A stretch of DNA of 64,000 nucleotides from Balaenoptera acutorostrata (taxonomy: Eukaryota > Chordata > Mammalia > Artiodactyla > Balaenopteridae), in NCBI RefSeq assembly GCF_949987535.1, contig NC_080081.1, positions 39,472,428 through 39,536,427 on the forward strand, given 5' to 3'. The notes beneath the pieces were generated by a model. The model was not told where the DNA came from. It ran no database searches and saw nothing but the letters and a program-made list of their open reading frames with translations. Below are positions 3,340 through 54,605 of this stretch, piece after piece. Numbering within the stretch: the stretch's first letter is position 1; every line of letters begins with the position of its first letter. The position numbers were made by a program, and so were the translations under genes.

Positions 3340-4904
3340 CCTTTAAAATATCTTGTCAGGTTTTAGTTGGGACAAATAAATATTCCTGGAAGTACTGAAA
3401 AACCCCTTGGAAGCCAAGAGGAGTCCCCAGAAAGGATGCAAAGGATAATCTGCTCCCAAGTTCCAGAGTCACTCCCAAAGATAAACAAACAAAACAGTTT
3501 CCTGAGAGCTGGCAACAGTCAATAGGACCCCACCTGCAAATGGAGTGCAACCCACATTTCTGTGCAGCAATATATGGGGGGCCCCCAACCAACCCGAGCT
3601 CTCAGGACACAAAAACAAGACAAACAAAAAGACACTAGCTGTCCCTGGGTTGGAAAGAATCTACAACCAACGGGTACCTGAAAGCAAATTCACAAATCAC
3701 AACTCAAAGATTGAATTCTTACAAATTTTTTTGCCTGCCAATCTGAATTTGGAAAGGAAGTGACAGCATGAAATTGTACCTTCGTCTCTCCACCAGGCAC
3801 CACAGTAGAGATCGGGGAGAGCTGACTGGTAAGAATTCTCTCCTTTGCTGGCTTCTGCCACTTTTCCTAGGATCCCCTGTCTGTAGGCTCTGAAGTGAGT
3901 GGGGTGTCCCAGCAGGTCTCATCCTGGTCACCAGACACTGCAGAGGAGGAAAAATAATTTTCCCTCTACCCTTTATGGTGAGTGTTTGGCTGACAGCCCC
4001 TTTTCTCTAGGGCACCTAACAAAGGGATACATTTATCTAGGTTAAAAGTTCTCCACTGGGGCTTCCCTGGTGGTGCAGTGGTTGAGAATCCGCCTGCCAA
4101 TGCAGGGGACACGGGTTCGAGCCCTGGTCTGGGAAGATCCCACATGCCGCAGAGCAGCTGGGCCCGTGAGCCACAATTGCTGAGCCTGCGCGTCTGGAGC
4201 CTGTGCTCCGCAACAAGAGAGGCCGCGATAGTGAGAGGCCCGCGCACCGCGATGAGGAGTGGCCCCCGCTTGCTGCAACTAGAGAAAGCCCTCGCACAGA
4301 AACGAAGACCCAACACAGCCATAAATAAATAAAATAAAAAAAAAAAAAAAAAAAAAAAAAGTTCTCCACTGAGGCCACTGTAATTCAAGACTATCGTTGG
4401 TAAAATTAACCTGATTGTTCAGCCTTACAACAAAATTTTACTCACCTGAAGCCCCACACTGGACCCTGTCCAGTTTCAGCCAGACCCAGTCTGATCCCAG
4501 ACACAGACCAATTTCTAAGTCGGAGCCAGTCTGAAAAAAGAAATGCTCAAATAAAGTGTGAAAGCTCATAAAGCAAAAGTTGCAGAGTCAGGATGCAGAG
4601 GGACCTCCAGAGGCAGCAAGAAAGCAGGGAGCTCAAAGGGCTCCACAGACATCTATGTCAGGAACAAGGAAGTTGTAGTAGATAAAAGAAGGGGCTGGTT
4701 ATCACAAGGTCATTTTCCTTTAGGGGATGGCAGGAGTCTATCAGGCATATTACCTCACTAGTGTTGATCTAATTGGGCGATTCCCGATTGACCGGTTTAA
4801 GATTCCATTTCTGGGAGAACTGACACTGTAGTAAAGTCTTGGTTTGGTGCTGTGGGGCTTAGCATAAGCGACTCCATTTTGGGTCTGTTGTCTTGTTCTT
4901 AACA
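3340..4904 (-). mobile_element. Endogenous retrovirus LTR/leader remnant, class I-like, split by a SINE
   Basis: Read on the minus strand, the element starts with TGTTAAGAACAAG near 4904 and continues through AAAATGGAGTCGCTTATGC and a long U3/R-like stretch. After the SINE at 4059-4356 it carries a leader-like stretch with TGTCTGGTGACCAGGATGAG (around 3930) and further non-LTR sequence to about 3340. This looks like an LTR plus leader of a class I-type endogenous retrovirus. No gag, pol or env reading frame survives: only short, broken frames are present. The 3' boundary and the family are uncertain. Confidence 0.5.
4059..4356 (+). mobile_element. CHR-2-type SINE, copy 1
   Basis: A full-length tRNA-derived SINE: the start gggcttccctggtggtgcag includes the A-box region, ggttcgagccctgg is an intact B-box-like motif, and the tail is AATAAAT followed by a long A-run. 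Perfect 15-bp target duplications (aaaagttctccactg) flank it at 4044-4058 and 4357-4371. It has no coding capacity and would be mobilised in trans by L1. It splits the older ERV remnant, so it is the younger insertion. Confidence 0.97.
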
Positions 4905-8661: not shown

Positions 8662-8945
8662 AATTTATTTATTTATTTATTTTTGGCTGTGCTGGGTCTT
8701 CGGTTCGTGCGAGGGCTTTCTCTAGTTGCGGCAAGTGGGGGCCACTCTTCGTCGCGGTGCGCGGGCCTTTCACCATCGCGGCCCCTCCCGCTGCGGGGCA
8801 CAGGCTCCAGACGCGCAGGCTCAGCAGCTGTGGCTCACGGGCCCAGCCGCTCCGTGGCATGTGGGATCTTCCCAGACCAGGGCTCGAACCCGTGTCTCCT
8901 GCATTAGCAGGCAGATTCTCAACCACTGCGCCACCAGGGAAGCCC
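8634..8945 (-). mobile_element. CHR-2-type SINE, copy 2
   Basis: Minus-strand full-length copy. Its A-tail appears as a T-run plus TTTATTTA repeats at the left, and its 5' end (ccaccagggaagccc) is at the right. Target duplications tcctctgagtttt lie at 8621-8633 and 8946-8958 (13 bp, perfect). The B-box-like motif is intact (gggctcgaaccc on the plus strand). Confidence 0.97.
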
Positions 8946-15123: not shown

Positions 15124-15424
15124 TTTTATTTTTTTAAATTTTATTTTATTTTATTTATTTATGGCTGTGTTGGGTCTTCATTTCTGTGCGAGCGCTTTCT
15201 CTAGTTGCGGCAAGCGGGGGCCACTCTTCATTGCGGTGCGCGGGCCTCTCACTATCGCGGCCTCTCTCCCTGCGGAGCACAGGCTCCAGACGCGCAGGCT
15301 CAGTAACTGTGGCTCACGAGCCCAGCTGCTCTGCGGCATGTGGGATCCTCCCAGACCAGGACTCGAATCCGTGCCCCCTGCACTGTCAGGCAGACTCTCA
15401 ACCACTGTGCCACCAGGGAAGCCC
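15124..15424 (-). mobile_element. CHR-2-type SINE, copy 3
   Basis: Minus-strand copy with a TTTTATTTTATTTAT tail and the gggaagccc end. Target duplications tgagtaggtttatt at 15110-15123 and 15425-15438 are perfect (14 bp). The B-box region reads gactcgaatcc on the plus strand, a variant of the usual gctcgaaccc, so this copy is more diverged there than its siblings. Confidence 0.96.
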
Positions 15425-31021: not shown

Positions 31022-31312
31022 TTTCTTTATTGATTGATTGATTGATTGATTGCTATGTTGGGTCTTCGTTTCTGTGCTAAGGCTTTCTCCAGTTGTGGCA
31101 AGTGGGGGCCACTCTTCATCACGGTGCGCGGGCCTCTCACTATTGTGGCCTCTCTTGTTGCGGAGCACAGGCTCCAGACGCGCAGGCTCAGTAGTTGTGG
31201 CTCACGGGCCTAGTTGCTCCACGGCATGTGGGATCTTCCCAGACCAGGGCTCGAACCCGTGTTTCCTGCATTAGCAGGCAGATTCTCAACCACTGCGCCA
31301 CCAGGGAAGCCC
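30995..31312 (-). mobile_element. CHR-2-type SINE, copy 4
   Basis: Minus-strand copy whose tail region is a T-run of about 28 bases plus a TTGA tetranucleotide expansion (31028-31052), instead of the TTTA repeats seen in its siblings. Perfect 15-bp target duplications tccaattgggttttt lie at 30980-30994 and 31313-31327. The B-box-like motif is intact. Confidence 0.97.
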
Positions 31313-40792: not shown

Positions 40793-41092
40793 TTTTTTTT
40801 AATTTTTAATTTTTATTTTTTTTAATTTTTGGCTGTGTTGGGTCTTCGTTTCTGTGTGAGGGCTTTCTCTAGTTGCGGCAAGCGGGGGCCACTCTTCATC
40901 GCGGTGCGCGGGCCTCTCACTATCGCGGCCTCTCCCGTTGCGGAGCACAGGCTCCAGACGCGCAGGCTCAGTAATTGTGGCTCACGGGTCCAGTTGCTCC
41001 GTGGCACGTGGGATCTTCCCAGACCAGGGCTCGAACCCGTGTCCCCTACATTGGCAGGCAGATTCTCAGCCACTGTGCCACCAGGGAAGCCC
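40793..41092 (-). mobile_element. CHR-2-type SINE, copy 5
   Basis: Minus-strand copy with a T-run and TTTTTAATTTTT tail at the left and gggaagccc at the right. Target duplications tcttcgttttt (40782-40792) and tctttgttttt (41093-41103) differ at one base. The B-box-like motif is intact, while the A-box region reads gtgccacca on the plus strand. Confidence 0.95.
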
Positions 41093-42119: not shown

Positions 42120-42458
42120 TTTTTTTTTTAAAGAAATATGTGCCGTACTAGTTTTTTTTTTTTTTAACTTTTGGGTTTATTTATTTATTTATTTATGGCT
42201 GTGTTGGGTCTTTGTTTCTGTGTGAGGGCTTTCTCCAGTTGTGGCAAGTGGGGGCCACTCTTCATCGCGGTGCGCGGGCCTCTCACCATCGCGGCCTCTC
42301 TTGTTGCGGAGCACAGGCTCCAGACGCGCAGGCTCAGTAATTGTGGCTCACGGGCCCAGCTGCTCCGCGGCATGTGGGATTCTCCCAGACCAGGGCTCGA
42401 ACCCGCATCCCCTGCACCGGCAGGCAGATTCTCAACGACTGCGCCACCAGGGAAGCCC
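42120..42458 (-). mobile_element. CHR-2-type SINE, copy 6, with unique 3' sequence in its tail
   Basis: Minus-strand copy between perfect 16-bp target duplications (aataatgaagattttt) at 42104-42119 and 42459-42474. On the plus strand the tail is a T-run to 42129, a unique 22-base segment (42130-42151), a second T-run (42152-42165), aacttttggg and then TTTA repeats. Everything between the duplications arrived in one insertion, so the unique segment is part of the inserted RNA. Confidence 0.95.
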
Positions 42459-47668: not shown

Positions 47669-47760
47669 AAAAAAAAAAAGAATTCATTCTATGTATATAG
47701 TGTTTTTCTTACTTTAAAATACATAATAACTGTTTATTATAAAATGTTTGTTGCTTTTTT

Positions 47761-48241
47761 TTCCCCCACAATTCATTTACTGAATTGGAGAGGTGATTTA
47801 ACAACAGATTACGAGATAAGGCTGGGAGAGAAGAGTTCTTGCTTTCTCTCCCAGGAGACAGTTGTGTCATGGATGCTTGTAAATTTTCCAAAATAGCCAT
47901 CTGCGGTTGGGCAAGCTGGGCCTGAAGCTGGAGATTGGCATACATACATTCTAGGAGTCCCAGGTATTCCTTGGGCTTGTGGTCAATTCCCGAGGGCAGC
48001 TTTGTGGCCAGGATTTTCAGGAAAGTAGCTGATGGGGAACTTGCTTGAAGATTAATAACGCTGGGGGAGGGTTTGTCTTGACAAAGAGGCACAGCATTAC
48101 CTTCCTCTTTGGCTCTTCTGTTAGTAGGATGACTACAGCGCTGCTCCATCTGAACACCAACAGGTGTGGTGCTTGCAGTGTTAATTGAAAGCCTCAATCC
48201 CAGCACCCACCCCTGTAGCTGATACACATGCGCAGTCATTC
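47761..48241 (-). pseudogene. TSACC: TSACC (TSSK6-activating co-chaperone) retrocopy, near-intact ORF
   Basis: TSACC is known as a small testis protein that works with HSP70 to activate the kinase TSSK6 in spermatids. The minus strand translates from ATG at 48149 into a protein with the blocks [43 protein letters not shown] and KNSSLPALS, which I recognise as TSACC (about 125 aa in human, from memory). No stop interrupts this, and the frame stays open upstream to 48239 through what looks like 5' UTR. After LLNHL a probable 1-nt deletion shifts the frame: the expected FSK-stop lies in the neighbouring frame with TGA at 47773-47775, while the actual frame runs on about 25 residues to a stop at 47709. 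Retrocopy signs are the single uninterrupted exon, a short A-tail (8 T on the plus strand, 47755-47762) and candidate 11-bp target duplications (47750-47760 and 48242-48252, one mismatch) at a TT|AAAAAA site. I infer a processed pseudogene or candidate retrogene. No promoter is evident. Confidence 0.85.
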
Positions 48242-48454
48242 GTTACTTTTTTAAAAGAACATAGCACAAAAGATAAAACATAGGCACAAAATCAGCTACA
48301 CAGTGGTAACACTAATGCTATATAGTAAAATACTATAGTATTACATAGTATTATATAATATTAAAGCATTATATTATATTATAGTATATATAAATATATG
48401 TAGCAAAAGCACATATATATGTTCTTTAACCTATCTTTCTAGAAACATTCAAAA

Positions 48455-48669: not shown

Positions 48670-50770
48670 TTTTAACTTAGCACATAGTGGAATTCAACAA
48701 GTGGAAACTGAGTAAATCAATATTAATTTCATGCTCCGACATGTTTTTTTTCCGAAGAGAATATTTTAATTTTTGATGCCAATGGCAAGATCATAATTAT
48801 GTACTTTTGAATGTGCTCCTGCGTTCTGGAGAGAAAAATAAAACAAATGGGCTTCCCTCAATAGAAATAGAGATTTTTGAATACTTAATGAAGAGTAAGG
48901 AAACATTCATATTAGTTTTTCTTGGTCATCTCATGAATTATATTTGAAATGACTTGGTTTTGATTTTTCATTACATTTGTCCAATATTCTAGTAGTGTCC
49001 TATAACAGATGGCTTGGCTTTTCACAGAAGAGTTAAGATAAAATATACTAAACATTTTCACATGTCCATTTACAAGAGAAAGTTAGAATACAGTACCATA
49101 GTAAACAATAACTTCTTCCCTAGCATGTGTACACACACACATACTCACACAGACACACGTTTATTACATATTTTACTGATATAAAGAATGAATAGCTCAC
49201 AATTTACAAATCACATATTTCATGCTAAATTTCATATAACCAAATGATTCTTACAGAATATTTTCATTTAACTGGCAAATGACAAATGAGTATACTTCGG
49301 ACATGAATCTTTCTGATATTTTCATTTATGTTAATAGGCAAAACAGAAGTAAAAGAGAAGTAAGACATATTTCAGAACTTCACTCATTCATCAACAATGT
49401 AAGCACTTATTTGTTTAATCAGGTAGTAGTTTTCAAATGTTGGAAGAGCATTTCATCATTTTCTTCTACTATGTGCAAGTAATGGCTACAGATATGACAC
49501 ATTTTAAGTTTATTCTGTATTAATATTTTCTCCATCACTCTCAAGTTTAGATAATCAACAAAGCACTAAATCAAGCCCTGCGTATTTGATAATTTCTATG
49601 GTGTGAGTCCTTCAAGCTACCAACATGATATTACAGAGCATGGAGTTGAAAAGGGATGCACAGACGGTGCATTACATACTATCTGTACCATACACTTACA
49701 ATAGATGGAACAACTTCGAGATCATTGACAAGAGTAAAAGTTGGTAAAGCAATGATTTTAATATAATTTACTTAATCATAAGTTCTTATATATTAATTTT
49801 TAACAATGACTATGTTTAGTAACTGGATCACAAAATTCCTGAAAATTTACCAGGTTTTAACAGCTCCAGTGCACTGTTGCCCATAGAGTGTTGCACTCCT
49901 AAACATGGAAATTATGACCAATGGCCATTGAGTATGGTGGGAGCTGGCGTATTCTAATAGAAACTTTTGCTCTTTAATAGTTAATCATCTGTTTTTGGTC
50001 AATCTTTGCTAAAGTTAACTAGTTTTCACCAGGCTATAAAGTTCTATATCGTTTGATCTAAAAGATTAAATGTTTTCCCATCATCCATTTGCATTAATAT
50101 ACACTGATTTGAAGGTAAAATACAAATTTCTCATTCGGTTGGCTTCCTGATAAAGAATTTAGAGTAGTACATGGGCTGACAGTTGCATGCAGGTTTTGTT
50201 TTTCTGAAGGGCCAAGGGAACAATTTTGGCAACCAGAGCTACTGTTATCCCTATCACTTCTCTTCCTCCTCATCTTCCTCTTGCTTTTTTTTTTTTCTGT
50301 TTTCTCCTCCAGATAGAAACCCTCATAAAATGGGATATCCTTAAAATATAGTCTGGTCTGTTATTGATATAATTTATTTTCTTTCTGAGTCTATATAAAG
50401 AATATGGTCTTTGCCTAAAAATTGCACTGAAGTATGCATATGTACCAGTCCAGCCTGTTTTTCTTTTAAGTGTTTCCCAACTGCCTTTTTCTTAAGCTAC
50501 TTTCTTTTTCTCTTGGCTGCTTGTAGCCATGACAACAACCTGTGCTTAGCCATTGTGAGTCTTTCTCCATCCAGGAGCTTTGGAGAGCCTGACAAAATGC
50601 TAGGGATATGTGTTGATTCAGATCTTTGAGAGGGTCCATTTAGTTGTCCAGTCTTTGATCCAAATTGAGAGTTCTTTGGTCTGTTTGCTTCACCTCAGGC
50701 AAACTATCTTTCATTTACTTATTTCAAATTCTTGACTTGGCTGTTAGGTGTCACTTCAAGAAACTGTTAA
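48670..50770. other. No recognised feature
   Basis: AT-rich with a short CA patch at 49131-49158. No supported gene. Confidence 0.4.
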
Positions 50771-50789: not shown

Positions 50790-51133
50790 GGGCTTCCCTG
50801 GTGGCGCAGTGGTTGAGAATCCGCCTGCCAATGCAGGGGACACGGGTTTGAGCCCTGGTCTGGGAAGATCCCACATGCCACGGAGCAACTAGGCCCGTGA
50901 GCCACAACTACTGAGCCTGCGTGTCTGGAGCTTGTGCTCCGCAACAAGAGAGGCCGCGATAGTGAGAGGCCCGCGCACCGCGATGAAGAGTGGCCCCCGC
51001 TTGCCCCAACTAGAGAAAGCCCTTGCACAGAAACGAAGACCCAACACAGCCAAAAATAAATAAATAAATAATAAAAATAAAGGAATTCCTTTTTTAAAAA
51101 AGCCTATGTCACTTCATAAAAAAAAAAAAAAAA
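50790..51133 (+). mobile_element. CHR-2-type SINE, copy 7, with unique 3' sequence in its tail
   Basis: Sense copy between perfect 15-bp target duplications (aaaagattcacttca) at 50775-50789 and 51134-51148. After AAATAAATAAATAAATAAT the insert continues with a unique stretch of about 38 bases (51080-51117), which contains ggaattcc and a TTTTTTAAAAAA palindrome, and then a terminal A-run. The B-box-like motif is mutated (ggtttgagccc). Confidence 0.96.
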
Positions 51134-51149
51134 AAAAGATTCACTTCAA

Positions 51150-52595
51150 ATATGTCTTTATTTTATGTTCTTTCCCATTTCCTGGAAGTCGATTATGTTG
51201 GCATATAGAAGATGCAGTTTACTCTAGAATTTCTGGCGTGCCTTTGAAGTTTTGAAATTGTGTTACAAAGGATGTTAATTGATTGCTTTTTTATGGGTAA
51301 TGGAAGGCAAATGGCAGTTGGTGGAGAAGAGAAAAAGGAGTGTGGGAGGGAGTATCAATTTGGAACAGGTGTTGATCATTTTTACCTAGATTAAGTAGTA
51401 CAACTATAAACAAACCGTCTTCTAAAATAAAGCCTCAAAGTTAAAAAGGCTAAATGAAAGGCTTTCCATGAGAGCACCCCCAATCCCCTTCCTAAAACAG
51501 AAATGTTCACTGTAAAACAGAAGTTGCAAATTTGTTAAGAGTGGTTGGTTGGAAATAAGAGCTGAAAGAGAAAACTGCATTGCAGTGATTGGCTTGATTT
51601 GGTGAATAAATTGCTATTTTCAGATTCAATTTGTATCAATAGGCAAACTTTGTACACCTGCAGACCCTGTCGCAGTATCAGGGCACTGAAGCAGCTGATC
51701 TTAAATAATCCGTTTCCCTTTCAACAATAATTCCACCCCCATTCCTGAAGCCTCAACCTAGGAGAGGAGCCTTTGATGTCTGATTGGCAAGCAATACTCT
51801 TTTCTATCACTAATGGAAAGAACACCACGGTTTGTAAATTTAAAGAATATCTCAGAAAAGACGGCCTCCTTGTTTTTAAAAGAGCTGAGGGTGTTGAATT
51901 GTTGGAAAGATTCATCTCTATTAAATGTGACTGAACACTGGGAGAGTAAGATACTGTTTCCTGCAAGAAAGTAAAGAAACCACATTTTGGTTATTTACAA
52001 TGCTCAGTGTAGCAGGTTGAGTTAAACAGGTGTTCACAGAAGTCATGCATATTTCCTGGCTGAGGAGACAGGTAGCAAAGGTATTTTACATGCTTTTCAC
52101 CATGGAGGGGGAGGGTTTGGGGTGGAATACCCTAGTCTTCCTAGGCTCTGATTCAGGTGCCTAATTAGAGACCTCCTTGTCCATCCTAGCACTTGGAGGC
52201 TGGAGCATTTTCATGAAATGAAGAAATCTTCCATTTTGAGGCCATAATAGATACAAATTAATTAATTCATAAACACTTTTTCTAACTTTCCAATTGGTGA
52301 ATATTAACAAAAATGCAAGGGATATATTTCATACACATATATTGAAAGAAAGAGAACAAAAATTTACCTTTGAAAATGACATCATAATTAGTGTAAAAAG
52401 TGCCACCTCCACATCCTTTAGTACATTCATCGTAGCATGTACAATTTTTAAACCCAGAGATATAAAAGGAGAAAATATGTGATTTATTTCAATGACACTT
52501 TTCTAGTATCAAAAACTTTTATGGGTACTTGAATAAAATAAAGCTATACTACTTGTCACTAAGTATGCACTCAAGTATTTAATGATTCCTTTTTT
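51150..52595. other. No recognised feature
   Basis: Single-copy-looking DNA. Overlapping minus-strand frames at 51721-51985 are unrecognised. Confidence 0.4.
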
Positions 52596-53412: not shown

Positions 53413-53712
53413 TTTTTTTATTTAATTAATTAATTTATTTATTTATTTTTGGCTGTGTTGGATCTTCGTTTCTGTGCGAGGGCTTTCTCTAGTTGCGGCG
53501 AGCGGGGGCCACTCTTCATCGCGGTGCGCGGGCCTCTCTCTATCGCGGCCTCTCTTGTTGCGGAGCACAGGCTCCAGACGCGCAGGCTCAGTAGTTGTGG
53601 CTCACAGGCCCAGTTGCTCCGCGGCATGTGGTATCTTCCCAGACCAGGGCTCGAACCCGTGTCCCCTGCATCGGCAGGCAGATTCTCAACCACTGCGCCA
53701 CCAGGGAAGCCC
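53413..53712 (-). mobile_element. CHR-2-type SINE, copy 8
   Basis: Minus-strand copy with perfect 14-bp target duplications ccagctgctttctt at 53399-53412 and 53713-53726. The tail is TTTATTTAATTAATTAATTTATTTATT and the B-box-like motif is intact. A 192-codon frame reads through this SINE into flanking DNA; it has no recognisable protein and should not be called a gene. Confidence 0.97.
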
Positions 53713-53729
53713 CCAGCTGCTTTCTTGAT

Positions 53730-54605
53730 GGACAGTCTGTTCCTGATTTTTGTCTTTGCTTTGCAATCAGTTTGGGAAGAAAGGAATATCTGCATTTCAG
53801 CTCCCAGTGTGGGGACACTTTTTCAGGGGTTCAAGCCTCCTTATCCATATTTTTCCTCCTTAGTAATCCAGACAGATATAGGTATTGCTTGGGTTGCTAT
53901 GGATTCAACAAAGCTTTACTTGAGCAGTGAATCCAAAAATAATTTTGTCTGTCAATGTACTTCTCTCTTATTTAACTGCAGCTTGTCAGTGGCTGGTGGG
54001 GAGAAGGCAGGAGGCTGGATGCACTGACATTAGTCACACGTGACATAACACAGTCAAACTGGGATAAGTGGGTATCACACAACCAAATAAAAGCATTGTT
54101 GTTGCTTTTTTCTGTATTTTTTTTTTACAGATGGATTCTGCCTATGAGCAGTACTTGACTTTTAGAAGAAAGAAACATACGCTACACACACAGACTAAAA
54201 ACATAACTTTTGTACATGTGCATCCTGAATTATAGAATATAATAGTCAGTCTTATTTGCCGAAAACTGATAAAAAATATTTTCACTCAAACTTAGAAAAT
54301 GGATTCCAAAGAATTCATAGTTTGCAGATGATTGAGAGAGTGTGTCCAATAAAGAAAATTATTAGACAAAAGCCACCTGATCCAGCTACCATACCCATTC
54401 AGGCACTCTTCTTTCCCAATTAAGTGTCTGTCATGTGGGCAAAACAGTTTGAACTTTGTCCCTGGAGTGCGCCTGGTACTCCCCTTTGCTGCCTCTGAAG
54501 CTCTGCTCTGTTCCCTCCAGGATTCTCCAGAAGCTTCCTCTCTTCCCTCCAGATATCTGTGTCTTCTCTAACACGTCCACTGTCTACTATAGCTTGAGGT
54601 TATTC
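53730..54605. other. No recognised feature
   Basis: No supported gene. The frame entering from SINE copy 8 continues to 54027 without protein-like features. Confidence 0.4.

Follow-up and report, generated by a model that had tools for sequence, protein, structure and literature searches.

A processed TSACC retrocopy with an open reading frame in a whale genome, probably an old pseudogene

Structure of the TSACC copy

The window is the whole 64,000-nt stretch of Balaenoptera acutorostrata DNA analysed here. Its minus strand carries an open reading frame (ORF) that contains a copy of TSACC, and the copy and its flanks comprise the following features.

47709..48239, minus strand: ORF of 176 codons formed by leader, TSACC-like core and shifted tail (30 + 120 + 26), from the ORF list and Pfam PF15836
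48150..48239, minus strand: 5' leader of 30 in-frame codons, equal to parental exon 1 and the start of exon 2, by identity with sheep P0015
47790..48149, minus strand: TSACC-homologous core of 120 codons without an intron, by Pfam and protein comparison
47786..47790, minus strand: place of a 1-nt deletion (exact base not fixed), from the frame change after NHL; P0002 and P0003 are shifted alike
47773..47775, minus strand: out-of-frame TGA fitting the parental stop, from sequence reading; parental proteins end in PQFSK
47755..47762, minus strand: run of eight A's, a poly(A) tail remnant that overlaps the 3' duplication copy, from sequence reading
48239..48252, minus strand: target-site duplication, 5' copy AAAAAAGTAACGAA, with TTTT just before it; 12/14 identical to the 3' copy
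47747..47760, minus strand: target-site duplication, 3' copy AAAAAAGCAACAAA; 12/14 identical to the 5' copy

The Pfam family PF15836 (SSTK-IP/TSACC) matches residues 31-151 of the ORF with an E value of 3e-61 and 205.5 bits against a cut-off of 27, which excludes a chance match. A search of 5.8 billion proteins returned 122 candidates, of which 105 matched with an E value of 0.001 or less. The best-scoring named matches are TSACC, PF15836 is present in the matches listed, and most of the named ones among them are TSACC. Ten other ORFs of the window were compared with Pfam, of which seven had no match and three had matches that all fell below the curated cut-offs. Rfam at gathering thresholds gave no match in the 64,000-nt window.

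The initial annotation had described an intronless TSACC copy on the minus strand, and this is borne out by the Pfam match and by a run that continues unbroken across four places at which parental isoforms or genomic readings break. These places lie after INTA, where the sheep isoform P0015 jumps to AKEEGN; after NRR, where P0043, P0067 and P0128 read VPAKEEGN; near KLSS, where P0128 continues into GKEGCRV and P0126 changes; and after LGLLE (P0096 and P0122). The inserted cDNA extends from about 48238 to 47763. Matches of the grade seen between the two duplication copies arose in 15 of 20,000 random pinned pairs, and in 40 of 19,975 when both starts were forced to lie at A-runs. TTTT ahead of the duplication is expected at an L1 endonuclease site. 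The 3' UTR of the copy is reduced to the 10 nt between the TGA and the eight A's, and the poly(A) remnant is short and partly common to the duplication. With introns absent and the duplication, its TTTT/AA site and an A-tail all present, the locus is an L1-type processed retrocopy, although the use of L1 as the retroposition machinery is itself deduced from the duplication and the TTTT/AA site.

Both ends of the frame differ from the parental gene. The ORF does not begin at a parental ATG: the 5' duplication copy supplies the A as its final base and the cDNA supplies the TG, such that the codon spans the junction of target site and insert. The leader matches the open 5' part of sheep TSACC isoform P0015 at 21/21 residues and reads STTPVGVQ as do parental isoforms, and the porpoise parent model P0126 has TTHVYQLQGLVLGLRPSINTA at this position. 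The in-frame 5' UTR that had been noted is therefore real, with 30 codons inherited from the parent, but because parental exon 1 is open in sheep too, it offers no evidence for selection on the copy. At the other end, a near-intact frame with a 1-nt deletion close to the C-terminus had been proposed, and protein alignment agrees, since the parental NHLPQFSK end is altered in the copy and the same shift is found in Tursiops. The predicted replacement of the last few residues holds (five are lost, PQFSK), whereas the gain is 26 residues, slightly above the 'about 20' that had been expected. These 26 derive from shifted codons, the short 3' UTR, the A-tail and the flank. The end of the tail differs in the Tursiops protein P0003, which reads WKN.

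The same locus in Tursiops and a further related copy

The Tursiops truncatus protein P0003 (173 aa, 13 member sequences) is annotated as 'TSSK6-activating co-chaperone protein-like', and tblastn aligns its TSACC part to the window with 92% identity over 126 residues. Its LSNSVNELW segment shows the deletion at the position that it has in the window, and thus the deletion is common to the Tursiops and window copies. The first 45 residues of P0003 are not TSACC. By tblastn, they map to two upstream sites in the window on the same strand and in the same order (MNVLKDVEVALF from 52430 and VNYIKIIALPTFTLVNDLEVVPSI at 49771-49700), and the Tursiops annotation is therefore a three-exon chimera at the same locus. 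Its upstream exons correspond to the following features.

52368..52430, minus strand: exon A of the Tursiops chimeric model, from its ATG, with a donor at 52367, by tblastn of P0003
49700..49770, minus strand: exon B of the Tursiops chimeric model, with a donor at 49699; 24/24 residues identical to P0003

Such an arrangement might mean that delphinids possess a chimeric gene, in which exons A and B spliced into the copy would supply a promoter and a new N-terminus to a coding or non-coding testis RNA. We regard this as unlikely, even though the upstream residues map so well and both donors are strong, ranking in the 99th (exon A) and 98th (exon B) percentiles among window GT sites when scored with a weight matrix. 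Against it, both acceptors are weak on the same scale (35th percentile for exon B and 41st for the copy), with an alternative CAG/ATG acceptor nearby in the copy at the 89th percentile. Moreover, the window version of exon A falls one base short of the length required by the Tursiops protein, and the MNVLK frame of the window runs into a stop at codon 1 of exon B. The frame of exon A is open in Tursiops by annotation, whereas in the window it is closed by this 1-nt difference. A chimeric protein, if real in dolphins, is not encoded the same way in the window. The annotated P0003 model may also be an ab initio extension.

Another related copy with the same frame shift is carried by a 648-bp ENA contig (P0002). 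It lacks R24Q, A25D and F31V, which are common to the window and Tursiops copies, yet it has P40S and T77A as in the window. This pattern of sharing conflicts with a simple tree, and could reflect gene conversion, a chimeric contig or recurrence.

Age of the copy and probable drift of its frame

The age of the copy can be judged from sites 28, 43, 52, 72, 76, 104, 110 and 113, where the window, Tursiops and P0002 copies all carry S F P N Q K A R. In the cetacean parent models, each of these sites that is present in the model and properly aligned shows the corresponding residue of T C S S E Q T C. Coverage amounts to eight sites in Megaptera P0035, seven in Physeter P0027, six in Phocoena sinus P0043, five in Phocoena phocoena P0067, and three each in P0096, P0120, P0122, P0126 and P0128, and two of the parent-side residues (43C and 113C) are also present in some other mammals. 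Because the ancestral residue is kept at 8/8 sites that changed in the parent, the copy appears to be old and probably predates living whales. Most likely it separated from its intron-bearing parent before the divergence of the living whale groups, and these ancestral residues would place the insertion before crown Cetacea. One change, L47P, is common to Tursiops and delphinoid parent models and runs counter to this simple picture, although recurrence or conversion could account for it.

If neutral, the missense changes imply a divergence of 4.0-4.1% for the window copy and 5.6-5.8% for Tursiops. The window contains eight copies of a single SINE, which diverge from their own consensus by 1.3-6.8% (median 4.6%) when non-CpG sites are compared.

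4058..4333, 8669..8945, 15150..15424 and 31037..31312: SINE copies 1-4
40813..41092, 42181..42458, 50790..51067 and 53435..53822: SINE copies 5-8

These eight SINE copies also create several long chance ORFs in the window. Together with the syntenic Tursiops exons, the SINEs point to a cetacean host.

Relative to an inferred artiodactyl ancestor, the 120 core sites show ten amino-acid changes in the window copy, 14 in Tursiops and six in P0002, for which V20M was left out as a likely GTG start. Their union of 18 changes was assessed by a site test at the protein level against a background of 82 non-artiodactyl TSACC sequences, from which artiodactyls had been removed. The mean site entropy of the union is 0.97 compared with 1.00 for random mutation, and 10/18 of the new residues are unseen in the background, where random mutation gives 46%. 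By comparison, the 28 differences among five artiodactyl parents have an entropy of 1.44 with only 6/28 residues unseen, and these depart from random with P values of 0.0002 and 0.0076 (0.0006 and 0.0060 in a repeat). The copy differs from these parents by Mann-Whitney (P 0.019) and Fisher (P 0.027) tests. Taken singly, the sheep (P 0.003), cow (0.018) and hippo (0.039) parents are distinct from random, pig is borderline (0.064), and camel alone among these yardstick genes looks random (0.58). Thus, the protein-level site test finds no sign of purifying selection on the copy protein among 18 changes in three related copies, at a sample size that weak or partial constraint would escape and with a bearing on the protein rather than on the RNA.

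The initial annotation had argued that a frame so well preserved must be either recent or constrained. No stop codon occurs in any of the three related copies, but the missense counts lead one to expect only 0.47-0.93 stops, and a frame would remain open by chance with a probability of 0.39-0.63 when substitutions are considered and indels stand outside the model. This chance, together with the inherited leader, most likely explains the openness of the frame, and the argument fails in view of the 8/8 ancestral residues and the random-like changes. The fourfold-site substitution rate is lowest in cetaceans among 12 mammals compared in one study (PMC6657726).

We therefore favour an old pseudogene, and consider it probable that this processed TSACC retrocopy arose in an ancestor common to the living cetaceans, from which time it has drifted. 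Spliced TSACC mRNA would have been copied into a TTTT/AA site, generating the 14-nt duplication; one base near the C-terminus would have been lost before the copies in the window and in Tursiops diverged; and drift without selection on the protein would have followed, with the frame open by chance. The random-like changes suggest that the copy has no protein function.

The lack of stops in three copies and the annotation of the Tursiops ortholog P0003 as a 'TSACC-like' gene run counter to a pseudogene. These same observations, and an ORF that is open with its leader included, would suit a testis retrogene under constraint whose protein is encoded by the 176-aa ORF, albeit one with an altered C-terminus. 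We find this highly improbable, given that the amino-acid changes look random, that the three changes shared in the core include C62Y and Q82P at residues found in 0/90 sequences, that the tail is different in Tursiops and that the in-frame leader came from the parent. That the locus is the parental TSACC gene itself has a negligible probability and was ruled out despite the top named matches, given the missing introns, the duplication and A-run, the different sequence of cetacean parent models, and a parent model (P0128) in which intron-like sequence is read on either side of exon 3.

A second cetacean TSACC copy is represented by Orcinus P0005 and Mesoplodon P0020. Like the window copy, it is TSACC-like and retains the ancestral residue at most of the eight sites, but it is distinguished by its own shared changes (M1L, N33K, D56E and Y70C). 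It does not lie in the window, where the only strong tblastn match of P0020 is the present copy. With M1L left out, its changes differ neither from random (entropy 1.10) nor clearly from the artiodactyl parents (P 0.11 and 0.47). It is perhaps another old retrocopy.

The parental gene in cetaceans

TSACC (also called SIP or C1orf182) is a co-chaperone of elongated spermatids that serves the HSP90-dependent activation of TSSK6 and is thought to bind HSP70 first (PMC7401350). We applied the site test to five cetacean parent models (P0035, P0067, P0096, P0120 and P0122), leaving out P0027 and P0043 for their misaligned stretches. Their 18 changes are random-like (entropy 0.83, 9/18 unseen), and the outcome is the same for the 17 that remain (entropy 0.82, 9/17 unseen) once K60R of P0120, which may be a frameshift artefact, is removed. 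Cetacean parents differ from other artiodactyl parents with P 0.006 (Mann-Whitney) and P 0.05-0.06 (Fisher). Several models also look damaged, namely P0027, P0035, P0043, P0067, P0096, P0120, P0122 and P0126. The Physeter model P0120 breaks off after 78 aa, the Megaptera model P0035 is labelled 'LOW QUALITY', and one and the same unrelated GFSRGYMDV tail replaces the usual last coding exon in the models of Sagmatias, Pseudorca and Neophocaena. Decay or loss of parental TSACC in whales is thus possible, although this evidence consists of annotated proteins in which assembly or annotation error could play a part. Running counter to decay, the cetacean parent changes are chemically milder than random, with P 0.05-0.09 in one run and about 0.2 in another. 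In the Puma concolor model P0125, TSACC exons are joined to the domain of an ammonium transporter (RHBG), which suggests that the parental locus is read through or that the model is wrong there.

TSACC ranked first in a screen for convergent gene loss in low-acuity mammals, comprising bats, rodents and subterranean mammals (PMC9355568). Cetaceans are mentioned there three times, in other connections. This was the only paper naming both TSACC and cetaceans that we found in the open-licence literature, and a search for TSACC together with pseudogene yielded only papers unrelated by title; subscription journals lie mostly outside this coverage. Among the entries listed from broader searches, none named TSACC. 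If true, loss of the parental gene in whales would fit the convergent loss described in other mammals (PMC9355568) and would raise the question of how TSSK6 becomes activated in whale spermatogenesis. This side result may matter more than the retrocopy itself. It is even conceivable, though we think it very unlikely, that TSACC has been unconstrained since stem cetaceans, such that old retrocopies persist as the intron-bearing parent erodes, and that in dolphins the present copy, joined to captured exons from upstream as a chimeric testis gene, has partly taken over.

The retrocopy is ordinary in kind, but it is a clear example of an old pseudogene with an open frame, and it indicates that in whales an open frame alone is no ground for reading selection. 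The copy and parental TSACC belong to the same family (PF15836), and they differ in the introns and the PQFSK end, which are present in the parent and missing from the copy. The coexistence of a retrocopy with a parent that may be failing recalls the replacement of SYCP1 by a retrogene in amphioxus (PMC5803294). Unlike that replacement, the TSACC copy bears no sign of selection.
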